This document shows positions 2,932-13,625 of a stretch of 64,000 nucleotides of DNA, in pieces. How positions within the stretch are numbered: the stretch's first letter is position 1; every line of letters begins with the position of its first letter. This DNA comes from Thermosipho affectus (lineage in GTDB: Bacteria > Thermotogota > Thermotogae > Thermotogales > Fervidobacteriaceae), in contig NZ_LBFC01000015.1 of assembly GCF_001990485.1 (NCBI RefSeq), forward strand, positions 1 to 64,000, in the 5' to 3' direction. The notes below the pieces were generated by a model. It worked only from the letters and a program-made list of their open reading frames with translations, was not told the DNA's origin and ran no database searches. Made by a program: the position numbers and the translations under genes.

Positions 2932-5402
2932 ACAGATGGTTAGACATTAAACCATCAAAAAACGCCTACAAAATACTTTCAGAAAGGTACTTTTATAAAA
3001 ATATGGAAGGGGAGTTTTTGGAAACAAAATGGGAAGAAGTTTGCAGAAGAGTTGCAAGGGTTGTAGCTACATCTGAAATTCTCTACAACAAAAATTTGGA
3101 TAAAGTAAAAGAATATGAAGAAACATTCTACAAAATGCTCAAATCTAGAATCTTTATTCCAAACAGTCCAACACTTTTCAATGCGGGAATGGGAGTAAGA
3201 CCAGAACTTTTGTGGAAACCTATTGAAAATATGACATTGGAAGATTACGAGGAAATTTACAATACAAGAAATCACCTTCACATGTTATCTGCTTGTTTTG
3301 TAGTTCCTGTTGAAGATAGTATCGAAGGTATATTTGAAGCCGTAAAAGAATATGCTTTAATTACAAAAGCTGGTGGTGGGATTGGTTCAAACTTTTCTAG
3401 TTTAAGACCCAAAGGAAGTTTTGTTGCAGGCACACATGGCCAAGCATCCGGTCCTATCTCTTTCATGCACGTTTTTAACTCTGCAATTGGAGTAGTAGAA
3501 CAAGGATATAAAAGACGCGGCGCTTTGATGGGAATTTTAAACATTAATCACCCTGATATTGAAGAGTTTATAGCAGCAAAAGAAAATAATGACGGAGAAA
3601 AAGTGTTAAAGTATTTCAATATTTCAGTGGGAATTCCCTTTGAGAAGGAAGAATTTCTAAAATTGTACAATGATGATAAAGAAATAATTCTAACTCATCC
3701 AAAATTTAACAATAAAAAAAGCATAAAAGCAAGGTATATATTAGAAAAAATAGCTAAAAATGCATGGAAAACAGGTGACCCAGGACTTGCATTTTTACAT
3801 GAAATGAACAAATACTATCCACTTTATCCAGAAAAAGAAATTATTTCTACCAACCCATGTGGTGAAATTGGACTTGCACCGTATGAGGCGTGTAATCTTG
3901 GATCAATAGATGTTGCAAAATTTGCAAATGAAAATGGTGAAATAGATTGGAAAGCGTTGGAAAAAACCGCAAGACTTGCCGTAAGATTTTTAGACGACGT
4001 AATTGACGTTAACGTATTTCCACTTGAAAAAATTACCAAAGCCGTCAGAGAAAGCAGAAGACTTGGACTAGGGATAATGGGGTTTGCAGATTTGCTATAT
4101 AAATTAAATATCCCTTACAATTCAGAAGAAGGAAGAAAGATCGCTGTTGATTTAATGGGATTCATTGCACTCCATAGTCATGATGAATCAAATAAACTGG
4201 GAAGGGAAAAAGGAAACTTTCCATTATTTGAAAAAAGTAGATTTTACACCGAAGATGGATTTGTACCATTTGCAATGGGATTAAGCAAATACGATGATGA
4301 AATAAAAAACGTTATGAAAGAATCTAAACATGGAAAAAGAAACGTTGCAGTATTAACTATTGCTCCAACGGGATCTATCTCAAATATAGCAGATACAAGT
4401 AGCGGACTTGAACCAAATTTCTTACTTGCATACGTTAGGTATATGAATAAGCATGATGGCAATAAAGAAGCTTTATTTTACGTTAATAGGGTACTTGAAG
4501 AAAAGTTAGATTCATCAATACTTGAAAAGATAAGAGATAAATTAATTGAAAAAGGTTCTCTACAACAACTTGACGTTCCTGAAGAAATAAAAAGAGTTTT
4601 TGTGACAGCTATGGATATTTCCCCAATGGACCATCTTTTAATGCAAGATGCCTTTCAAAGATATACAGATAACAATATATCAAAGACTATTAATATGCCA
4701 TCAACAGCAACTGAAGAAGATGTATTAAATATTTACCTTGAAGCGTTTAGATTAAACGTAAGAGGACTTACAATATACAGAGACGGATCACTCCAAACAC
4801 AGGTATTAACATCTGCCAAACATGTAAAAACAAAAGATGCACCAAAAGTACAATTTTTCCTCTTAGATGAAAAACATAAACTTAGACCAAAACCACGTAA
4901 AAACACGCTACGTAGTGTAACGAGAAAATACAAATCACTGGAAAATACTACTTACATTACCGTTTCTTTTGATGACAGCGGCGAAGCTGTGGAAATATTC
5001 CTCTCAAATGGAACCGAGCTTGCAGAATCTATAGGAAGATTATCGTCTATTGCTTTAAGAGCAGGGGTGTCAATTGAAGAAATTCTTGAACAACTTCAAA
5101 AAGTTAATGGAAAATACACAAATGGCTTAGCAGAGGAAATCAAAAAAGCCATAGATGACTTTATAGAACTTTGGGGAAACACAGAAATCCAAGATGACGA
5201 AGTTTTTGTAATAGATGGAACGATAAAAACGGCAGAAGAGGTAGAAAAATTTGTAATGGCAAATGACCTAGAGTGGAGTGAAGGATATTATGTAGATGAA
5301 AATGGAAATGTATATTGCCCTTCATGTCTATCTAAAAATAGTATTATCAAACAAGAGGGTTGTATGAGCTGCAAAAAATGTGGCTGGAGTAAATGTAGTT
5401 AA
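2913..5402 (+). CDS. nrdJ: Adenosylcobalamin-dependent (class II) ribonucleotide reductase
   Basis: 829-residue vitamin B12-dependent reductase. Visible landmarks are the active-site cysteine in HMLSACFVV (Cys128), the catalytic Asn-Cys-Glu set in NPCGE (Asn314, Cys316, Glu318), APTGSISNIADTSSG, and a TSCPD-type domain at about 660-740. The C-terminal tail has CPSC, CMSCKKCGWSKC, giving a zinc finger and the redox cysteine pair that re-reduces the active site. The start is GTG, 6-7 bases after AAGGAGGAG, and overlaps nrdG by 19 bp, so the two are probably translationally coupled. A class II enzyme in the same NrdR-controlled operon as class III gives two oxygen-tolerance options. Confidence 0.95.
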   Translation: MYEDVLNRWLDIKPSKNAYKILSERYFYKNMEGEFLETKWEEVCRRVARVVATSEILYNKNLDKVKEYEETFYKMLKSRIFIPNSPTLFNAGMGVRPELLWKPIENMTLEDYEEIYNTRNHLHMLSACFVVPVEDSIEGIFEAVKEYALITKAGGGIGSNFSSLRPKGSFVAGTHGQASGPISFMHVFNSAIGVVEQGYKRRGALMGILNINHPDIEEFIAAKENNDGEKVLKYFNISVGIPFEKEEFLKLYNDDKEIILTHPKFNNKKSIKARYILEKIAKNAWKTGDPGLAFLHEMNKYYPLYPEKEIISTNPCGEIGLAPYEACNLGSIDVAKFANENGEIDWKALEKTARLAVRFLDDVIDVNVFPLEKITKAVRESRRLGLGIMGFADLLYKLNIPYNSEEGRKIAVDLMGFIALHSHDESNKLGREKGNFPLFEKSRFYTEDGFVPFAMGLSKYDDEIKNVMKESKHGKRNVAVLTIAPTGSISNIADTSSGLEPNFLLAYVRYMNKHDGNKEALFYVNRVLEEKLDSSILEKIRDKLIEKGSLQQLDVPEEIKRVFVTAMDISPMDHLLMQDAFQRYTDNNISKTINMPSTATEEDVLNIYLEAFRLNVRGLTIYRDGSLQTQVLTSAKHVKTKDAPKVQFFLLDEKHKLRPKPRKNTLRSVTRKYKSLENTTYITVSFDDSGEAVEIFLSNGTELAESIGRLSSIALRAGVSIEEILEQLQKVNGKYTNGLAEEIKKAIDDFIELWGNTEIQDDEVFVIDGTIKTAEEVEKFVMANDLEWSEGYYVDENGNVYCPSCLSKNSIIKQEGCMSCKKCGWSKCS

Positions 5403-5404
5403 AT

Positions 5405-5428
5405 AAAAGCTCCCTTTTGGGAGCTTTT
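5405..5428. terminator. Bidirectional intrinsic terminator
   Basis: Perfect 10 bp stem AAAAGCTCCC / GGGAGCTTTT with a TTTT loop, directly after the nrdJ stop. A-tract and T-tract on the two sides let it serve both the rightward nrd operon and the leftward surface locus ending at 5510. Confidence 0.9.
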
Positions 5429-5509
5429 ATATTTCTCTACGAAAAATCTACATATAAAAATTAATTGGCTATGTTTGCAACCGGAGGAATTTTATCCAAT
5501 ATTAGAACT

Positions 5510-7378
5510 TTAAAACACAACTTTTCCAAAAATATCAAAATAAATATTGGAATTTTCCAATCTAATTTTTAAACCAAGGTTATATTCATTATCATACAGC
5601 AACCCAAAATTGTATTTATCAGATAAATTTGTGTGACTGTATCCTCCAAAAATTTTGTAATTCTTCACAACTGGTATATACATTGAAATATTATAATTCA
5701 AATCTGTCATGGAAAAGTCTGTTACAAGATCCCAATTGAATAGACTTAAATCCATAGCAAATTTATTTTTGAAATATTGCAACGTTGTATTCCAATCATT
5801 TGATTTCGCCTCACAATAAAATCCCAATTCTCCTAAATTGAAAAAGTATCCACCGTACAATTCCACATCTGCATCAAAAATACTAAAGTTATATCCCAAA
5901 AGTATTCCATTCCTATCGTAGAAATCTCCGTATAAAAGTGAGAAATCGCTATATCTTGCTCCAATTATAAATGGAACAGCACCAGACTCTGCTCCTAAAT
6001 CTACAAAAACACCGGCAAAAGAAAGATATACACCACTTTGGATACCGTTAAATGGTAAATCAACTGGCAAATTGTAATGTGCCATAATATTCCATTTGTC
6101 TACTTTAAAATTAATTACTCCGTATTCGATATTAGCTCCTGAATAACCTATTGAAAATTCAAGTTCATCTGAAGGTTTAAATATCAAAGATAATTTATTT
6201 GAAAATCCTATACCTTTTATTAAAGTCGTAGAATCGTATTTATAAGTAACAGTAAAGTTATAAATTCCACTCAAATTCACAGAACTTTTACTTGAATTTT
6301 CTGATTTTTTTATCACTAAATTCCCGCCTTCTAAAACAAGTTCAAACGCTCCATTTTTTCCTCCATATCCATCTGGTACATAACCAGGAGCATTTGGATC
6401 TTCCTGCCAAACTTGATTACCATTAATTAAGAATACATATTTATACTGATACTTACCTGGATTTAATTCCATCGAAACTTGCCAATATCCATCTACATTT
6501 TTCATCTCAATTGCCTGTGAATCCCAATTATTAAAACTTCCAGCCAAAAATGCTTTTGTTGCTTCTCTTTTTTCTACTTTAAAATATACCTTACCATCAA
6601 CTACACTCACACCCAATGGTATCTCTTTTTTTCCTTCCACTACACTTTCCGGTGCTTTAACAATAAGACTTTCACCCCCTCTACAAACTTTTAAAACAGA
6701 ATTTTTACCTCCAAAACCATCTGGAACGTATGCAAATGCATTTGGATCCTCTACCCATTCTTCACCATTAACAACAAACTTGTACTGATATTCTCCTGGT
6801 TCAAGTTCCAAGATTGCTTCCCACCATCCATCACCTAAACCGTACATTTCATCACTCTCTGCATCCCAATTGTTAAAGTCCCCTGCGATCATAACATAAT
6901 CAGCATCTGGATTGTAATACCTAATAACTACATAACCTTCCTCATCGACAAATATAGTGTCTTTCCTTTCTTTGTTAATTTCATACTCTTCTGCACCATT
7001 TTCTTTTTCCATTAACTTCCCAATAGGTTCTATTACAAGAGAACCATCCTGTAAGACTAATTTAAATGCCCCGTTTTCTCCCCCATAACCATCATCAACA
7101 TACGATGGAGCATTCGGATCCTCTACCCATTTTTCACCATTAACAACAAACTTGTATTGATACTCACCTGGTTCAAGTTTAAGTGCTACCACCCATACAC
7201 CATCTTTAAATTCCATTTCTGTGGATGTTGTAGACCAATTATTAAAATTTCCAGCTAAGTACACTTGTTCTGCATCAACTTCGAACGTAAAATAAACCAT
7301 TTCCTCTTTAACAAATACATTTGAAAAGATTGAAACAGATAGAATAATTAAAAATACAAATAAAGATTTTTTTCTCAT
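5510..7378 (-). CDS. Secreted or outer-membrane protein: three CBM48-like modules plus beta-barrel
   Basis: 622 residues starting MRKKSLFVFLI, a signal peptide. ATG 7378 follows GGAGGTG; an upstream in-frame start would overlap the previous gene and lacks a ribosome site. Three repeats of about 90 residues follow (about 25-115, 145-240, 255-350), each with V-[YM]-[IL]-AG-[DNS]-FNNW, PGEYQYK[FY]V and WxEDPNA: the glycogen/starch-binding early-set fold of CBM48 and AMPK-beta type. Residues about 370-622 are alternating polar and hydrophobic strands ending in Phe, typical of outer-membrane beta-barrels. Inference: a surface glucan-binding protein anchored by a barrel. No catalytic glycosidase motif is visible. 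Confidence 0.8.
   Translation of the reverse strand: MRKKSLFVFLIILSVSIFSNVFVKEEMVYFTFEVDAEQVYLAGNFNNWSTTSTEMEFKDGVWVVALKLEPGEYQYKFVVNGEKWVEDPNAPSYVDDGYGGENGAFKLVLQDGSLVIEPIGKLMEKENGAEEYEINKERKDTIFVDEEGYVVIRYYNPDADYVMIAGDFNNWDAESDEMYGLGDGWWEAILELEPGEYQYKFVVNGEEWVEDPNAFAYVPDGFGGKNSVLKVCRGGESLIVKAPESVVEGKKEIPLGVSVVDGKVYFKVEKREATKAFLAGSFNNWDSQAIEMKNVDGYWQVSMELNPGKYQYKYVFLINGNQVWQEDPNAPGYVPDGYGGKNGAFELVLEGGNLVIKKSENSSKSSVNLSGIYNFTVTYKYDSTTLIKGIGFSNKLSLIFKPSDELEFSIGYSGANIEYGVINFKVDKWNIMAHYNLPVDLPFNGIQSGVYLSFAGVFVDLGAESGAVPFIIGARYSDFSLLYGDFYDRNGILLGYNFSIFDADVELYGGYFFNLGELGFYCEAKSNDWNTTLQYFKNKFAMDLSLFNWDLVTDFSMTDLNYNISMYIPVVKNYKIFGGYSHTNLSDKYNFGLLYDNEYNLGLKIRLENSNIYFDIFGKVVF
6738..7177 (-). repeat. 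Near-identical 68 bp direct repeats inside the CBM48 gene
   Basis: Positions 6738-6805 and 7110-7177 match at about 63 of 68 bases by eye. They encode the core (PNA, EDP, W, GE, V-N-G, K-F-V, QYKF) of modules 1 and 2. Module 3 (around 6385-6470) is clearly more diverged. The repeat length is enough for homologous recombination to add or lose a module. Confidence 0.85.
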
Positions 7379-7391
7379 CTTCACACCTCCA

Positions 7392-8567
7392 TTACCACCA
7401 AGTATTAAATTCCAACGAAACAACTTTTTTGAAATTATTCACATTGTAAAAATCTCCATTTCCAATGGAAAGTTTTACCTCTCCGTTTGAAAATCCAGTA
7501 ATTTTCATTTCTGCATATACCGTATTTTTTATTTCATACACACCTACTATTCTCTGTGCCTTTCCAAAAAATGAAATATTTCCAAAAGTTTTTGAAATTT
7601 CAATATAATACACTTCTCCCAAAGTTCCAATTGTGTTATGTGCAGGTTTCCCAAAAGAATAAGAGATCTTTCCGTTAAAATCAAATAACGAATAGTCATA
7701 TTTCAAAGTAAAACTAAACTTTTCCCATAAATCAGGTGTTAAACCTATACTATCAAAACCTATTTTTGAAAGAGAAACTGAAAATTTAGAAACATTAAAA
7801 TTTAGCCCAACCTCACTTAAACTTTCAAAATTTTTTCCATTTTCATCACTTTTAATATTTCCCCAAACCCCAAAATTATCAGCATTATACCACATAGTTA
7901 TAAAATATCTATTTGATTTATCTATACTTGTAAAATCTGGTAGCATCACATTTTTACCCAAAAAAGTGGATTTTACCCCCCATCTTAAGTTCTTATCCAC
8001 CAATCCAAATTGGTAAATTCCCTTTTCAAAATCAACACTTCCATCATACGTATAAACCGCTTCAAACTGAATATCAACAAAAGTAGGTAACATTATTTGA
8101 AATAAAAAATCTTTCAATTGATCTCTTATACCAATTAATATTAATCCATTATTTAACTTGTATTTTAGATAATTCAAAGAAAGACTATTATACAAAAACA
8201 AATAAAAGTTCGAATAATTCATCATTACCCCATCTGAGCCCGTACTAAAATTATACAAACCAAGAAAATCATCCAAGTTCCCAAAAATTCTATTTTTATA
8301 CAAATAAAGTCCAAACGTTTTCTTTGAAAAATCCAATTCTGCAGATTCCAAATTCTCACCATTCAAAGAAAAATTCCCAGAAAAATCACTTCCCAAAACA
8401 CTCATGTTGAATCTAAACTCTGTCGACATATTATAACTTGGAACAAATACTGGAAAACCATTTGAAAAATCTGCAAAGTATACAAATTTAAAAGAATAAG
8501 ATGGAGAAATCATACCAAATGAAAACAGCGAAAAAATAATCAAAACAAAAAATATATATTTTTTCAC
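7392..8567 (-). CDS. Predicted outer-membrane beta-barrel protein, unknown function
   Basis: 391 residues. The N-terminal MKKYIFFVLIIFSLFSFG is a clear signal peptide. The rest is a run of short amphipathic strands rich in Tyr, Phe, Asn and Ser (for example FGLYLYKN, FYLFLYNSLSLNYL, FSFTLKYDYSLFDF), ending in aromatic residues (NTWW). That looks like a beta-barrel, but I recognise no family. The stop lies 13 bases before the next gene's start, and the lipoprotein gene upstream is only 9 bases away, so it sits inside one operon with CBM48-bearing partners. A polysaccharide channel is possible but unproven. Confidence 0.65.
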   Translation of the reverse strand: MKKYIFFVLIIFSLFSFGMISPSYSFKFVYFADFSNGFPVFVPSYNMSTEFRFNMSVLGSDFSGNFSLNGENLESAELDFSKKTFGLYLYKNRIFGNLDDFLGLYNFSTGSDGVMMNYSNFYLFLYNSLSLNYLKYKLNNGLILIGIRDQLKDFLFQIMLPTFVDIQFEAVYTYDGSVDFEKGIYQFGLVDKNLRWGVKSTFLGKNVMLPDFTSIDKSNRYFITMWYNADNFGVWGNIKSDENGKNFESLSEVGLNFNVSKFSVSLSKIGFDSIGLTPDLWEKFSFTLKYDYSLFDFNGKISYSFGKPAHNTIGTLGEVYYIEISKTFGNISFFGKAQRIVGVYEIKNTVYAEMKITGFSNGEVKLSIGNGDFYNVNNFKKVVSLEFNTWW

Positions 8568-8576
8568 ATTACCACC

Positions 8577-9251
8577 TCACTTAACATAAACATTCAAAAT
8601 GCTAAACTTTGGATCAAATTCTATGTAAAGAGAACTTCCAGATTTATCCGCAATAAATAAAGCATCTTGTCCATACCCGGCGTTATAATTTTTTCCATCA
8701 AACTGTTCTTCATAAGGTTTCCAATCGATTCCCCTGGCAATTTTATACTTAAAACTATCACCCTTATTAACATCTATATTCAGCTCATATACAAATTTTC
8801 CATCAATTTTTTCCATCTTTTCTAAAGACCAACCGTTGAAATCTCCCGCACAATACCAATCACCTATTTCTTTTTCAATATCCCCTGCACCCACAGCATA
8901 TCCATCACGCATAATATTAGGTGAAGCAAATACAGTTATTGAAGTAGCATCAGCTAAATTTTCCTTCCAAACAGGAACACTTGATTGAACTTTTGTCACA
9001 CCACCTACGTATATAACTTTATACCACCCAATATTTCCAAGACTTCCAGGGTAAAAAGTAATAGATGCTACAGGAATTTCAAATTCATAAATTCCATTAT
9101 TTAAAACCATCCTATCGTTTTGCGTTGGGACCCAATTATTCCATTCACCTGCCACATATACACCCGATTCTAAAGATAAATTAAATAGTTTCATACAACC
9201 TGATAATAATAGTGCCAGGACAAAAAAAGAAAATATAAATATTTTTTTCAA
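8577..9251 (-). CDS. Lipoprotein with two early-set (CBM48-like) domains
   Basis: About 224 residues starting at TTG 9251, five bases after GGAGGTG; a TTG at 9266 would place the ribosome site inside the coding region. The signal peptide ends in a lipobox LLSGC, so the protein should be lipid-anchored. Two domains show the same V-[YC]-[AV]-AG-[ED]-[WF]-N-[NG]-W hallmark as the barrel protein 5510-7378 (SGVYVAGEWNNWVP and GDWYCAGDFNGWSL). The second has a KYKIARG strand. Likely role: surface glucan binding together with the barrels downstream. Substrate is inferred only from fold type. Confidence 0.75.
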   Translation of the reverse strand: MKKIFIFSFFVLALLLSGCMKLFNLSLESGVYVAGEWNNWVPTQNDRMVLNNGIYEFEIPVASITFYPGSLGNIGWYKVIYVGGVTKVQSSVPVWKENLADATSITVFASPNIMRDGYAVGAGDIEKEIGDWYCAGDFNGWSLEKMEKIDGKFVYELNIDVNKGDSFKYKIARGIDWKPYEEQFDGKNYNAGYGQDALFIADKSGSSLYIEFDPKFSILNVYVK

Positions 9252-9281
9252 ATTAATCACCTCCAAAACTCATAATAACAA

Positions 9282-9299
9282 GGGGACCTCAAGGTCCCC
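9282..9299 (-). terminator. Intercistronic hairpin before lipoprotein gene
   Basis: GGGGACC, TCAA loop, GGTCCCC. On the minus strand it follows the broken lipoprotein gene and precedes a short T-rich stretch and the ribosome site of the next gene, leaving little room for a separate promoter. It could be a partial terminator or an mRNA-stabilising hairpin. Confidence 0.65.
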
Positions 9300-9329
9300 C
9301 TTTCGTCATCAGGTAAATATAAAAACAAT

Positions 9330-10091
9330 TTACATATTTTCCCAACTATGCACCTTTAGTATTACTATGGTTGCATCGTCGTTTAAAATTAAAGCTCTAT
9401 TATCTTCATACCCGCCGGTCTCATTACCTTCTGGATATGCCCAGGCATTTGATTCATTTTTCAATCTTAGTTTAAACTCATAATAAGTGTTTGATTCCAA
9501 TTGTTTTGTTATAGTCCATACATTACCTTCTTTCACCATATCTTCTCCATTCCAACCATTCATATCTCCAACTAGTTGTACTACCGAACCATCTGGAGTT
9601 GTATCAGGTACATAAGCAATAAATTTAACTGTTATTGTAGATGTAGCTGGATTTACAAGATCTTCGCCTTTCCAATTTAAAACTGCATCATTTACAATAT
9701 TTCTTAAATTTTCATTTACGTACACAAAACGATTTTTTATATCACTTGAACCATCTTTTTTCATTTCGACATTATCCTAACTTTTACCAATCAAATATTT
9801 GTATCGAAATTCTACTCCACCAGTAATGGAAGCTTCTGGAAGATCATATTCTCCAATTGCATATTTCTTTCCATCAACATCAGTTACATTAAGCACCCAC
9901 ACATTATCCAATTTCCAATTATTCATCTCACCAACAACATATATCTGAGTAGCGGTAGTTGTATCTGGCAAGAGTACTCTAAAAGAAAGTCACGGTTTTT
10001 GCACTTCTTTACTCAACTCAGGATTTACACAACCAAAAAATACAAAAACAATTAATAAAAGACTAACCATAAGATACACACTTTTTCTCAC
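9330..10091 (-). pseudogene. Lipoprotein with early-set domains, two in-frame stop codons
   Basis: From GTG 10091, after AAGGAGGG, the frame reads a lipoprotein signal ending in VFFGC. It then continues 254 codons through two glucan-binding-like modules (YVVGEMNNWKL, VQLVGDMNGWNG) to the stop at 9330. The same frame is cut by TGA at 9990-9992 (codon 34) and TAG at 9777-9779 (codon 105), with no frameshift. Protein similarity resumes right after each stop: the stretch after the TGA (RVLLPDTTTA) aligns with the start of module 2 (AYVPDTTPDG). Most likely a gene inactivated by two nonsense mutations. Sequencing error or stop-codon readthrough are alternatives. Confidence 0.8.
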
Positions 10092-10195: not shown

Positions 10196-10227
10196 AAAAA
10201 ATGCAAGGCAAAAAGCCTTGCATTTTT
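10196..10227 (-). terminator. Terminator after tRNA-Arg
   Basis: Stem AAAAATGCAAGGC / GCCTTGCATTTTT with an AAAAA loop. It starts at the tRNA CCA end and ends in a T-run on the minus strand. Confidence 0.9.
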
Positions 10228-10303
10228 GGCGTGCCCGGGGAGATTCGAACTCCCAACCTTCAGATCCGCAGTCTGACGCTCTATCCAATTGAGCTACGGG
10301 CAC
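10227..10303 (-). tRNA. tRNA-Arg (anticodon GCG)
   Basis: Cloverleaf on the minus strand: acceptor GTGCCCG / CGGGCAC, D arm AGCTCAATTGGATAGAGC, anticodon stem TCAGA / TCTGA with loop CTGCGGA, T arm GGGAG TTCGAAT CTCCC, and encoded CCA. Anticodon GCG reads CGC and CGU. Most bacteria read these with an ACG tRNA whose A34 is converted to inosine, so GCG is noteworthy. Confidence 0.95.
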
Positions 10304-10322
10304 AACTCCTTTTAATTTAAAA

Positions 10323-10342
10323 ATGGGGGAATACATCCCCCA
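10323..10342 (-). other. Hairpin between tRNA-Ser and tRNA-Arg
   Basis: TGGGGG / CCCCCA with loop AATACAT lies between the two tRNA genes. It could aid processing or weak termination; no T-run follows on the minus strand. Confidence 0.5.
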
Positions 10343-10348
10343 AAAACC

Positions 10349-10438
<90 letters not shown>

Positions 10439-10494: not shown

Positions 10495-11268
10495 CTAAAG
10501 TACTACCATTTCATTTGGACTTCTCAATAGAATTATAGGCTTTTCACCATCATCCCAAAGTTCACCGTAAAATCTTACAATTTTATCTTTTAAATCATAC
10601 AAGTTGTAATCTTTGAAAAAATAATCATATTCTTCTTCCCTTATTTTAATTGTAAACCAATCGCCATATATTTCCCACATTCCACCACTCTGGTGTACAT
10701 TACTAACTTTTCCCTCAAGAAATACTATATTTCCAATATATGATTTATAATTACTTGAATTTTTCAAAATAGGTGCTGTACTCCATTTTGAAAAAATCCC
10801 TACTTTTTTTTCAAAAGCATAATTGTACGCACTAACAATTCTGGAAGTTAATTCTGGATCAACATTTTCAAAATATATTAATGGCCTTGCAAGACCTGCT
10901 TTTAAAATTTCTTCTTCGTAAAAATACGTTTTATCTTTTGATTTTCCAAATACATATGCTAAGACTCTACCGTATCTATCTTTTCCCTCTTCTTTCAAAT
11001 AAATTTCATACTTTTTTACAAAATCTTCTAAAAACTGTTTTGCTTGTACTCCAAACTCACCTACAGGTTTACTACTTTTATGGACTTCCGGAGTATCAAT
11101 ACCAATAATCCTCACTTTATCCCTCACTGTATGAAATGTATCTCCGTCAACAACACTACTAACTAAAACTCCACTTCTTCCGTCTAGATTAATTATATCC
11201 AAATTAACACAAGAAGTTAAAATCAAAAAAACTAAAAAAGCATACAAAAACAGCCTTTTTACATCCAT
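10495..11268 (-). CDS. Lipoprotein thermonuclease (SNase-like) with C-terminal OB fold
   Basis: 257 residues. A signal peptide ends in LILTSC, a lipobox. Residues about 33-165 are a staphylococcal-nuclease domain: VVDGDTF, VRIIGIDTPE and DRYGRVLAYV carry the catalytic Asp and two Arg. It should cut DNA or RNA with Ca2+ outside the cytoplasm. Residues about 170-257 (YIGNIVFLEGKVSNVHQ..., IVRFYGELW) resemble an OB-fold nucleic-acid-binding domain, as in the Bacillus YhcR nuclease. The neighbours upstream on the same strand also carry OB folds. ATG is 7 bases after GAGGT. Confidence 0.88.
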   Translation of the reverse strand: MDVKRLFLYAFLVFLILTSCVNLDIINLDGRSGVLVSSVVDGDTFHTVRDKVRIIGIDTPEVHKSSKPVGEFGVQAKQFLEDFVKKYEIYLKEEGKDRYGRVLAYVFGKSKDKTYFYEEEILKAGLARPLIYFENVDPELTSRIVSAYNYAFEKKVGIFSKWSTAPILKNSSNYKSYIGNIVFLEGKVSNVHQSGGMWEIYGDWFTIKIREEEYDYFFKDYNLYDLKDKIVRFYGELWDDGEKPIILLRSPNEMVVL

Positions 11269-11288
11269 TAACCTTACCTCCTAAAATA

Positions 11289-11304
11289 CGCCGCAAATGC
11301 GGCG
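11289..11304 (-). terminator. Intercistronic hairpin before nuclease gene
   Basis: CGCCGCA AA TGCGGCG, extendable with a two-base bulge to about 11285-11310. On the minus strand it is followed by TATTTT and then the GAGGT ribosome site of the nuclease gene. No promoter fits between, so it may act as a partial terminator within the operon. Confidence 0.65.
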
Positions 11305-11314
11305 CGTATTAAAA

Positions 11315-12877
11315 CTACCTTATTTCAATATCTTCCTGCCATCTAGGTAAAATTTCATACTCGCCCTTGTAAACAGCTAAAATACCTTGGACTTTTACCT
11401 TTTGCCCAACATTTAAATTTGATATGTCTATATTTGTACCCTTTTTCAAATACACCTTTATAATAAAATCCCCTGTGTCAACTTTAAAGTTATACTTATT
11501 TTTTTCTTTTACTACTCCCTCGACATACACAAATGCAGAAATAAATGTCTTAGACAAACTTGTTAAAACATCTGGAATAACTTTTGCACTGCCAACTTTT
11601 TCAACATTATTTGCAACCAATTCAATCACACCATTCCACAATTTACTCTTCCCAGAAATCACCACAACATCTCCTACGTTTAAATCTCCTCCTAATACTG
11701 GAGAATAAATCATTAGTCCTGCAGTTTCATCTTGTATATAAAAGCTACCTTTTCCCAAAAGATCTTTTGGAGAAGTAACTATACCTTTAACTACAAAACT
11801 TTTTCCTTCTTCTCCAAGTATTACATCCATTATAGAATTAAATCCCTTCTTTTTTTCCTCAACTGGAGTAACAAGCTTAGAATTAAACGAGAATAATTTA
11901 TTAAACTCAAGGCTGTAGAAATAATTAAGCTCTGCTATTATCTTTTGTTCTCCTGCTATGTTGCTTTCTAAATCTCCATTTCCCACTTTTAAAGTAAAAT
12001 CTTTATATGCCAATTTCAAACCATACAACGGCAAATAATTTGGATCCGATGCCCAAACACTGTTATACCTTAAAAACACACCTAAAACATAATCGTTTAA
12101 AGCATAATCAACATCCAAATAATATGCCCATGCATTTGGCAAAAACGCAACATCATTTGGATCACCGGTTTGAAAATCTGCATCGTATCTATTAACACCT
12201 AAACTTAAAAATTGTGTGCTTAATGCTAAATTATTAAAGTTTACCTTTCCACCCACCAAATACGAAAAATTGGCAATATCAGATGATTTAGCCGACAAAG
12301 CTGTCCAAGCCAAAATTGAAAAATTACCTAAATCAAAGCTTCTATTTACATCCAATGAAATTTGATTATATTTTGTTTCATAATAGCCACCTAATTTAAA
12401 ACCAAACAAATCAGCCTGGACATATCCTGCAACACTTCCTAGATCTAAATCATATGCTGCTCCAAGATTTATTTTTCCAATTTTAACATCCAAACCTGCA
12501 CCATAGTAATCAAATTTCAATCCACCAACCCTCAAACCCTCTAGCTTTTCCGTTTGACTTTTTTTCAACCTTGTCTTTAGAACATCTAGTTTTACATCAT
12601 AACCAAATAAATCAAATTTTCCCTCAAGATAATAATATCTTGGCTTGAAAATCGAATATGTTCCCAAATTCCAAGAATCATGGGAAAGTTCTAAATAATC
12701 AGTTACTTTAAATGCCAAAAAATCAAATGGTTGGTATGTAACATAAAGTATGGGAAAGTAATCAAATGCGCCATCATCTAAACCCATTGTAGTTAAATTT
12801 AAAATAGAAAGAGAAAAATTTCCCGAAAAAGAAAGAATAGAAAGAAACAAAACTAAAGAAATCAAAATCCTTTTCAC
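11315..12877 (-). CDS. Outer-membrane beta-barrel protein with two C-terminal OB folds
   Basis: 520 residues. Starts GTG after GGAGGTG; MKRILISLVLFLSILSFSG is a signal peptide. Residues about 20-345 are amphipathic strands (YYYLEGKFDLFGYDVKLDVL, LGGYYETKYNQISLDV), as in a porin-like barrel. From about 350 two OB-fold units follow (FVVKGIV...SFYIQDETAGLMIY...LNVGDVVVISG, then VYVEGVVKEKNKY...LNVGQKVKVQG), ending in ILPRWQEDIEIR. The same ending (IYPRTAEDIEF) closes the lipoprotein upstream. Fold assignments are by eye. Likely role: surface binding or passage of nucleic acid or another polymer. Confidence 0.72.
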   Translation of the reverse strand: MKRILISLVLFLSILSFSGNFSLSILNLTTMGLDDGAFDYFPILYVTYQPFDFLAFKVTDYLELSHDSWNLGTYSIFKPRYYYLEGKFDLFGYDVKLDVLKTRLKKSQTEKLEGLRVGGLKFDYYGAGLDVKIGKINLGAAYDLDLGSVAGYVQADLFGFKLGGYYETKYNQISLDVNRSFDLGNFSILAWTALSAKSSDIANFSYLVGGKVNFNNLALSTQFLSLGVNRYDADFQTGDPNDVAFLPNAWAYYLDVDYALNDYVLGVFLRYNSVWASDPNYLPLYGLKLAYKDFTLKVGNGDLESNIAGEQKIIAELNYFYSLEFNKLFSFNSKLVTPVEEKKKGFNSIMDVILGEEGKSFVVKGIVTSPKDLLGKGSFYIQDETAGLMIYSPVLGGDLNVGDVVVISGKSKLWNGVIELVANNVEKVGSAKVIPDVLTSLSKTFISAFVYVEGVVKEKNKYNFKVDTGDFIIKVYLKKGTNIDISNLNVGQKVKVQGILAVYKGEYEILPRWQEDIEIR

Positions 12878-12897
12878 AATTTCACCTCCGATAAAAA

Positions 12898-12916
12898 TAG
12901 GGCCTTTACGGCCCTA
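12898..12916 (-). terminator. Intercistronic hairpin before barrel gene
   Basis: TAGGGCC TTTAC GGCCCTA on the minus strand, followed by TATTTTTATC and the GGAGGTG of the barrel gene. The whole gap is 61 bp, too short for an independent promoter after the hairpin. Confidence 0.7.
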
Positions 12917-12938
12917 AAATTCTATTAATTTAAAAGAC

Positions 12939-13625
12939 TTAAAATTCTATATCTTCCGCTGTTCTTGGATAAATTTGCCATTCATATTTATATCCTGCAA
13001 GATATCCTGTTACCGTTGCAGGTGCATTTTCACATGTGCTTACAGCTGTATATGTATACACTGTAACTGTTGCAGTTCCAGAATCTACTGGATATTCAAA
13101 TTCAAATTTTTTACCAGTGGTATCTAAAGAAGTTAATGTACCTTTTGCCGTTACAAACCTATAATTCCACAACGCAAGAGCAGTTGCATCTGCCGTATTG
13201 CCAGTAGCATCAAATAACCAAGTATTATCAAGTTTTACATTTAAAACACTTGGCTCACATTCACTAGCTGTTTCAGTTGAAACCACTGTAACATCCTTCA
13301 TCCTTAAATTTCCATTATAAGTATCTTTATACAACGTTCCTGTAACTGTTACTTTATCACCCACATTTAATCCTGCAGAAGAAATATCTTTGATGTATAT
13401 TCCAGAAGTTGAATCACTTAATATTCCATAATAATTATATTTATAAACAAGTATACCTGTTACAGTCGCAGAAGATGTATCATTTAAAAGATAATCTAGC
13501 TTAGCACCTGCAATACCTGTTAAAACAACTTCTTCTCAACCTTGTGGAAGATTTTGTTGTAAACATCCGCTAAATAAGATAAAAACTAATATAACACCCA
13601 AAATTACCCCTACATATTTCTTCAT
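12939..13625 (-). pseudogene. OB-fold lipoprotein with an in-frame TGA at codon 30
   Basis: From ATG 13625, after AAGGAGGG, the frame reads MKKYVGVILG...ILFSGCLQQNL, a lipoprotein signal. TGA follows at 13536-13538 and the same frame stays open to 12939 (228 codons in all). The body contains two OB-fold-like units (ATVTGILVYKYNYYGIL...LNVGDKVTVTGTLY, and FVTAKGTLTSL...) and ends WQIYPRTAEDIEF, like the barrel protein downstream. A restart at GTG 13364 would lose the signal and most of the first OB unit. The cause may be a nonsense mutation, a sequence error or readthrough. Confidence 0.75.

Follow-up and report, generated by a model that had tools for sequence, protein, structure and literature searches.

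What would a thermophilic bacterium do with a nuclease, an outer membrane barrel and an OB-fold lipoprotein encoded side by side? This question is raised by a 64,000 nt stretch of the Thermosipho affectus contig NZ_LBFC01000015.1, here called the window (contig C15 of the genome coded G000), in which three adjacent genes, all leftward and all with secretion signals, encode an OB-fold lipoprotein (gene LIPO), a barrel protein and a lipoprotein with an SNase domain (Table 1). The preliminary description of this DNA had recognized three consecutive genes for secreted proteins and had proposed an outer membrane system that binds, cuts and perhaps imports nucleic acid, and the genes and signals are all present as described. 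With moderate confidence, we read this cassette as serving the scavenging of extracellular nucleic acid as a nutrient at the outer membrane of the Thermotogota. This reading is favoured because the genes stay adjacent through changes of gene order, the SNase residues are conserved, OB units recur in fusions with nuclease-type domains and match the ExeM/NucH nucleases, the neighbouring genes are suited to it and the barrel has a porin-like predicted fold.

OB-fold units, nuclease and barrel

The motifs quoted in support of OB-like units are present, LNVGDKVTVTG in the LIPO product and both LNVGDVVVISG and LNVGQKVKVQG in the barrel protein, and these two proteins also end alike, in PRTAEDIE and PRWQEDIE. 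That the three proteins have such units in common is borne out above chance, more weakly for the SNase lipoprotein. In profile–profile comparisons, which rest on shallow alignments, the double OB of the barrel protein matches the LIPO profile with a probability of 98.7% (E 3.5e-16), and the barrel OB matches the C-terminus of the SNase lipoprotein with a probability of 92% (E 6e-7), the weakest OB link of the three. The barrel tail also passes the cut-off of the Pfam OB-fold family PF01336 (30.9 versus 27 bits). Against PDB sequences, the OB profile matched only RPA and EEP nucleases, marginally, and LIPO had no match.

The SNase domain is clear (PF00565, E 2e-17, 64.0 bits versus a cut-off of 21), and residues D41, D43, R53, D58, E61 and R101 are invariant among 14 orthologues. 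Since the catalytic residues are conserved, the predicted cutting of DNA or RNA by this lipoprotein is well supported. Its C-terminus (about aa 180–257) is modelled confidently with an OB-type strand order, the model of the nuclease part being poor. With this model, Foldseek finds SNase-family proteins (staphylococcal nuclease, Tudor-SN/SND1) and OB-containing aminoacyl-tRNA synthetases.

Other proteins of the phylum join the OB module to an SNase domain (708 aa), a PLD-type domain (761 and 693 aa) or a PHP-type domain (1423 aa). The module also matches the OB region of the ExeM/NucH nucleases (NF033681), weakly, at 13 bits versus a full-length cut-off of 300, and a multi-OB protein of genome G082 matches more strongly (65.4 bits); it is the OB region alone that aligns, with no full-length match that includes the EEP nuclease domain. 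ExeM of Shewanella loses nearly all nuclease activity when its OB region is deleted (PMC6085458). The resemblance to this family and the recurrent nuclease-type fusions would suggest that the OB units bind nucleic acid.

The barrel domain models as a 16–18-strand porin-like fold, with a Foldseek probability of 1.00 and TM-scores by target of about 0.4–0.54 for a model of moderate confidence. By Foldseek, it would have this fold in common with the OprD/Occ and Rhodobacter-type porins, to which it is only 8–16% identical over the aligned part, and to our knowledge those porins have no C-terminal double-OB tail. A tail that follows an even number of strands would be periplasmic, the strand count itself being unsettled. 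There is no Pfam or NCBIfam family match to the barrel domain, and a scan of GTDB, of limited sensitivity, gave Thermotogota loci only; we regard it as an undescribed barrel family that neither database covers.

Table 1. Features of the three-gene cassette in the window, with the basis of each assignment
Feature	Position	Strand	Basis
SNase lipoprotein gene	10495..11268	-	
C-terminal OB-like domain of SNase lipoprotein	10498..10743	-	model, Foldseek, profile comparison
SNase domain; motifs DGDT, RIIGIDTPE, DRYGR	10789..11169	-	Pfam, residue conservation
Barrel protein gene	11315..12877	-	
C-terminal double-OB tail of barrel protein, aa 341–520	11318..11857	-	PF01336 (E 2.6e-7), profile comparison, model
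Signal peptide and outer membrane beta-barrel domain, aa 1–340	11858..12877	-	AlphaFold model, Foldseek to OprD/Occ and R. blastica porins
Terminator-like hairpin between LIPO and barrel genes, possible attenuator	12898..12916	-	consensus scan only
LIPO with lipobox FSGC and double OB; frame broken at codon 30 (TGA)	12939..13625	-	sequence, profile comparison
In-frame TGA in LIPO	13536..13538	-	codon 30, immediately behind lipoprotein signal

Conservation and decay in the Thermotogota

The preliminary description had asked whether the three genes occur together in relatives, and they are indeed adjacent in many members of the Thermotogota, a phylum of mostly thermophilic bacteria (genomes, genera and loci of this comparison carry G-, g- and L-codes). 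Of 103 genomes, 47 gave a match to a profile built on the full-length barrel protein, in either its barrel or its OB part. Within 2.6 kb of the barrel domain there is an OB lipoprotein in 27 of 33 genomes and an SNase in 24 of 33, spread over several families. Four gene orders are seen: LIPO–barrel–SNase, LIPO–SNase–barrel, barrel–SNase–LIPO, and SNase divergent from barrel–LIPO. Although the barrel-bearing genomes, being related, do not count as independent samples, these rearrangements argue for a functional linkage. Barrels that have no OB tail adjoin an OB lipoprotein, other than in genus g26 and genome G087. Named relatives include Thermosipho metagenome-assembled genomes from the Guaymas Basin and one from Fervidobacterium, and the genomes of genus g7, which we take to be Thermotoga, gave neither a barrel nor an SNase match.

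The stop at codon 30 of LIPO was overlooked in the preliminary description. Unless this TGA is a sequencing error, the LIPO product is probably not made in the source genome. Most relatives have an intact frame, among them G002, G006, G009, G010, G012 and G014, while LIPO of G003 has a TAG immediately behind the lipobox, that of G100 has a frameshift, and G001 has lost both LIPO and the barrel domain. The set is thus an accessory one, in which decay has occurred several times.

In the case of G003, the SNase gene (L034, about 9050–9855) has a frameshift too, in an A/T-rich run around codon 80, and the barrel is still open. Downstream of the set in the window, another lipoprotein gene (9330–10091, minus strand) is likewise broken, with stops at codons 34 (TGA) and 105 (TAG). 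The possibility that stops behind lipoboxes are a trait of the lineage was rejected, as in a scan of the retrieved loci 55 lipobox genes were intact and the LIPO of the window alone showed the pattern, the strict form used having missed G003.

Proposed scavenging role and the alternatives to it

In scavenging, the OB lipoprotein, probably on the surface side, would capture or position nucleic acid or partner proteins, and the SNase lipoprotein would cut DNA or RNA into short fragments, as its conserved catalytic residues predict. The porin-like barrel may then pass the fragments across the outer membrane, where its C-terminal OB pair, predicted to be periplasmic, would hold them. Periplasmic phosphatases and 5'-nucleotidases, for which genes are present, could free nucleosides for a PnrA/Bmp-type ABC importer and for catabolism through DeoC. 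In the source genome itself the lipoprotein step has probably been lost through the stop codon. Of the earlier proposal to bind, cut and import, the cutting stands on the catalytic residues, the binding is suggested by OB family resemblance and weakened by the acidity of LIPO, and the import is conjectural.

Several neighbouring genes would fit such a pathway. There is a 5'-nucleotidase gene beside the cassette locus in G056 and G100, an alkaline phosphatase gene in G005, and deoC immediately downstream in G049. A PLD-type protein with OB units in G067 (L090:5894-7975) is divergent from the adjoining operon of a Bmp/PnrA nucleoside-type ABC transporter. In the source genome there are, besides deoC, two matches to the 5'-nucleotidase family and a pair of Bmp nucleoside-binding proteins. 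A Kosmotoga metagenome-assembled genome from DNA-fed Guaymas cultures has an EC 3.1.31.1 nuclease and nucleoside transporters (PMC8630151).

There are also observations that weigh against scavenging. Each of these links of context is found in only one or two genomes, and deoC, 5'-nucleotidase, Bmp and comEC were rejected as discriminating partners, being near-universal in the phylum. Three genomes have a broken LIPO, and G001 and G003 show further decay of the set. Confidence in the barrel model is moderate (pLDDT 74.7, pTM 0.49), and the barrel of genus g26 has neither partner beside it. The LIPO product is acidic in all members (pI 4.0–4.8), as are many OB1 units and nuclease domains, and such strong acidity argues against ordinary DNA binding by it; a case for nucleic acid binding made from charge was rejected for the same reason.

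The acidity of LIPO, like the unaccompanied barrel of g26, would also fit OB units that bind carbohydrate or protein, in a cassette that is a general surface scaffold or glycan-binding set with the SNase as a hitch-hiker. A related double OB is also found in a 649-aa lipoprotein, the N-terminal part of which is like the neighbouring starch-binding-like lipoprotein. Against this, the SNase remains adjacent through four gene orders, and the OB module turns up repeatedly with SNase and PLD-type domains and is similar to ExeM/NucH; we consider this explanation rather unlikely.

The LIPO product diverges faster than the barrel, with identities between G010 and G012, for example, of 44% and 85%, respectively, which is consistent with surface exposure. 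Surface targets of phage often diverge in this way, and the nuclease is an envelope lipoprotein, so that the SNase might instead degrade incoming phage DNA or the DNA of a biofilm matrix, tethered by the OB proteins. Defence would have no need of a porin-like barrel, however, and the links to phosphatase, nucleotidase and deoC are better suited to nutrition; we consider this very unlikely.

Natural transformation would be served by much the same parts, the OB lipoprotein and barrel bringing DNA in, the SNase trimming it and ComEC importing the strand. LIPO is distantly like DUF5689 (PF18942), at 23.4 bits, and the barrel protein matches it at 19.7 bits, both below the Pfam cut-off of 28.6, which only relatives pass (for example the G050 LIPO at 34.2 bits and the G082 protein at 73.4 bits). 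Transformation of Riemerella requires both a DUF5689 protein and the outer membrane protein encoded next to it (PMC8459023). In G100 (L086, about 4037–7051) comEC and the SNase gene are ~1.5 kb apart and separated by a single gene, the sole such case seen. Yet comEC is present in 98 of the 103 genomes irrespective of the cassette, many of them with no barrel, so that the presence of the cassette does not track competence genes, and a non-specific nuclease is better suited to feeding. Thermotoga sp. RQ7 is naturally transformable (PMC4029938), yet the g7 genomes have no barrel or SNase match. Transformation is therefore an unlikely role.

A bolder form of the scavenging proposal would see in the barrel the first of a family of dedicated outer membrane importers of nucleic acid, whose porin-like channel would draw SNase-made oligonucleotides into the periplasm, handed over by the surface OB lipoprotein to the channel with its periplasmic OB tail. 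This is possible, but doubtful.

Related systems and flanking genes

The preliminary description knew of no described system with this set and, as far as a partial coverage of the literature allows, no published description of the three genes in Thermotogota was found. There are precedents for parts of it. YhcR of B. subtilis has SNase and 5'-nucleotidase domains. ExeM (PMC6085458), NucH and YhcR, like the cassette, combine a secreted nuclease with a two-OB-fold region; in the cassette, however, the parts are separate lipoproteins accompanied by an outer membrane barrel, which those enzymes lack, and the catalytic domain is SNase where that of ExeM is EEP. We therefore call the cassette YhcR/ExeM-like parts split over separate genes, with an outer membrane barrel added. 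The second precedent is the Riemerella pair, in which RA0C_RS04920, exported and with an OB-type DUF5689, adjoins RA0C_RS04915, described as a beta-barrel, and both are needed for DNA uptake (PMC8459023).

The cells of Ca. Izemoplasmatales have no outer membrane, and so no barrel. Their DNA-degradation loci (PMC8289736), which serve the use of DNA as food, resemble the cassette in clustering nucleases and nucleic acid-binding domains, together with probable transporters of nucleosides, but have another protein architecture.

Little is known of the uptake of DNA as food across the outer membrane in anaerobic thermophiles, and descriptions of the outer membrane proteins of Thermotogota are poor. 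The conserved cassette of nuclease, porin-like barrel and OB proteins is a testable candidate for the outer membrane step and points to an undescribed barrel family, which it connects to the DUF5689/YhcR-type OB domain of DNA-handling proteins in other phyla.

A double-OB paralogue on another contig of the source genome (L031:9071-10633, G000:C18) is fused to a GATase1-like domain with weak DUF4350 and ABC_transp_aux matches; in Marinitoga-like genomes a similar GATase1-like domain is a separate lipoprotein adjoining the cassette. Elsewhere in the window there is a parallel outer membrane-like set (5510–7423, 7392–8567 and 8577–9266) with repeats that by eye appear glycogen-binding-like (E-set/CBM48-type). 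It is kept in the same order in G002, G006, G012 and G014, and beside it in G002, G012 and G014 is a lipoprotein of 638–662 aa that both resembles the 8577 protein and has a double OB. Immediately downstream of the SNase gene are the genes for tRNA-Arg (gcg) and tRNA-Ser (gct), at 10227–10438 on the minus strand.
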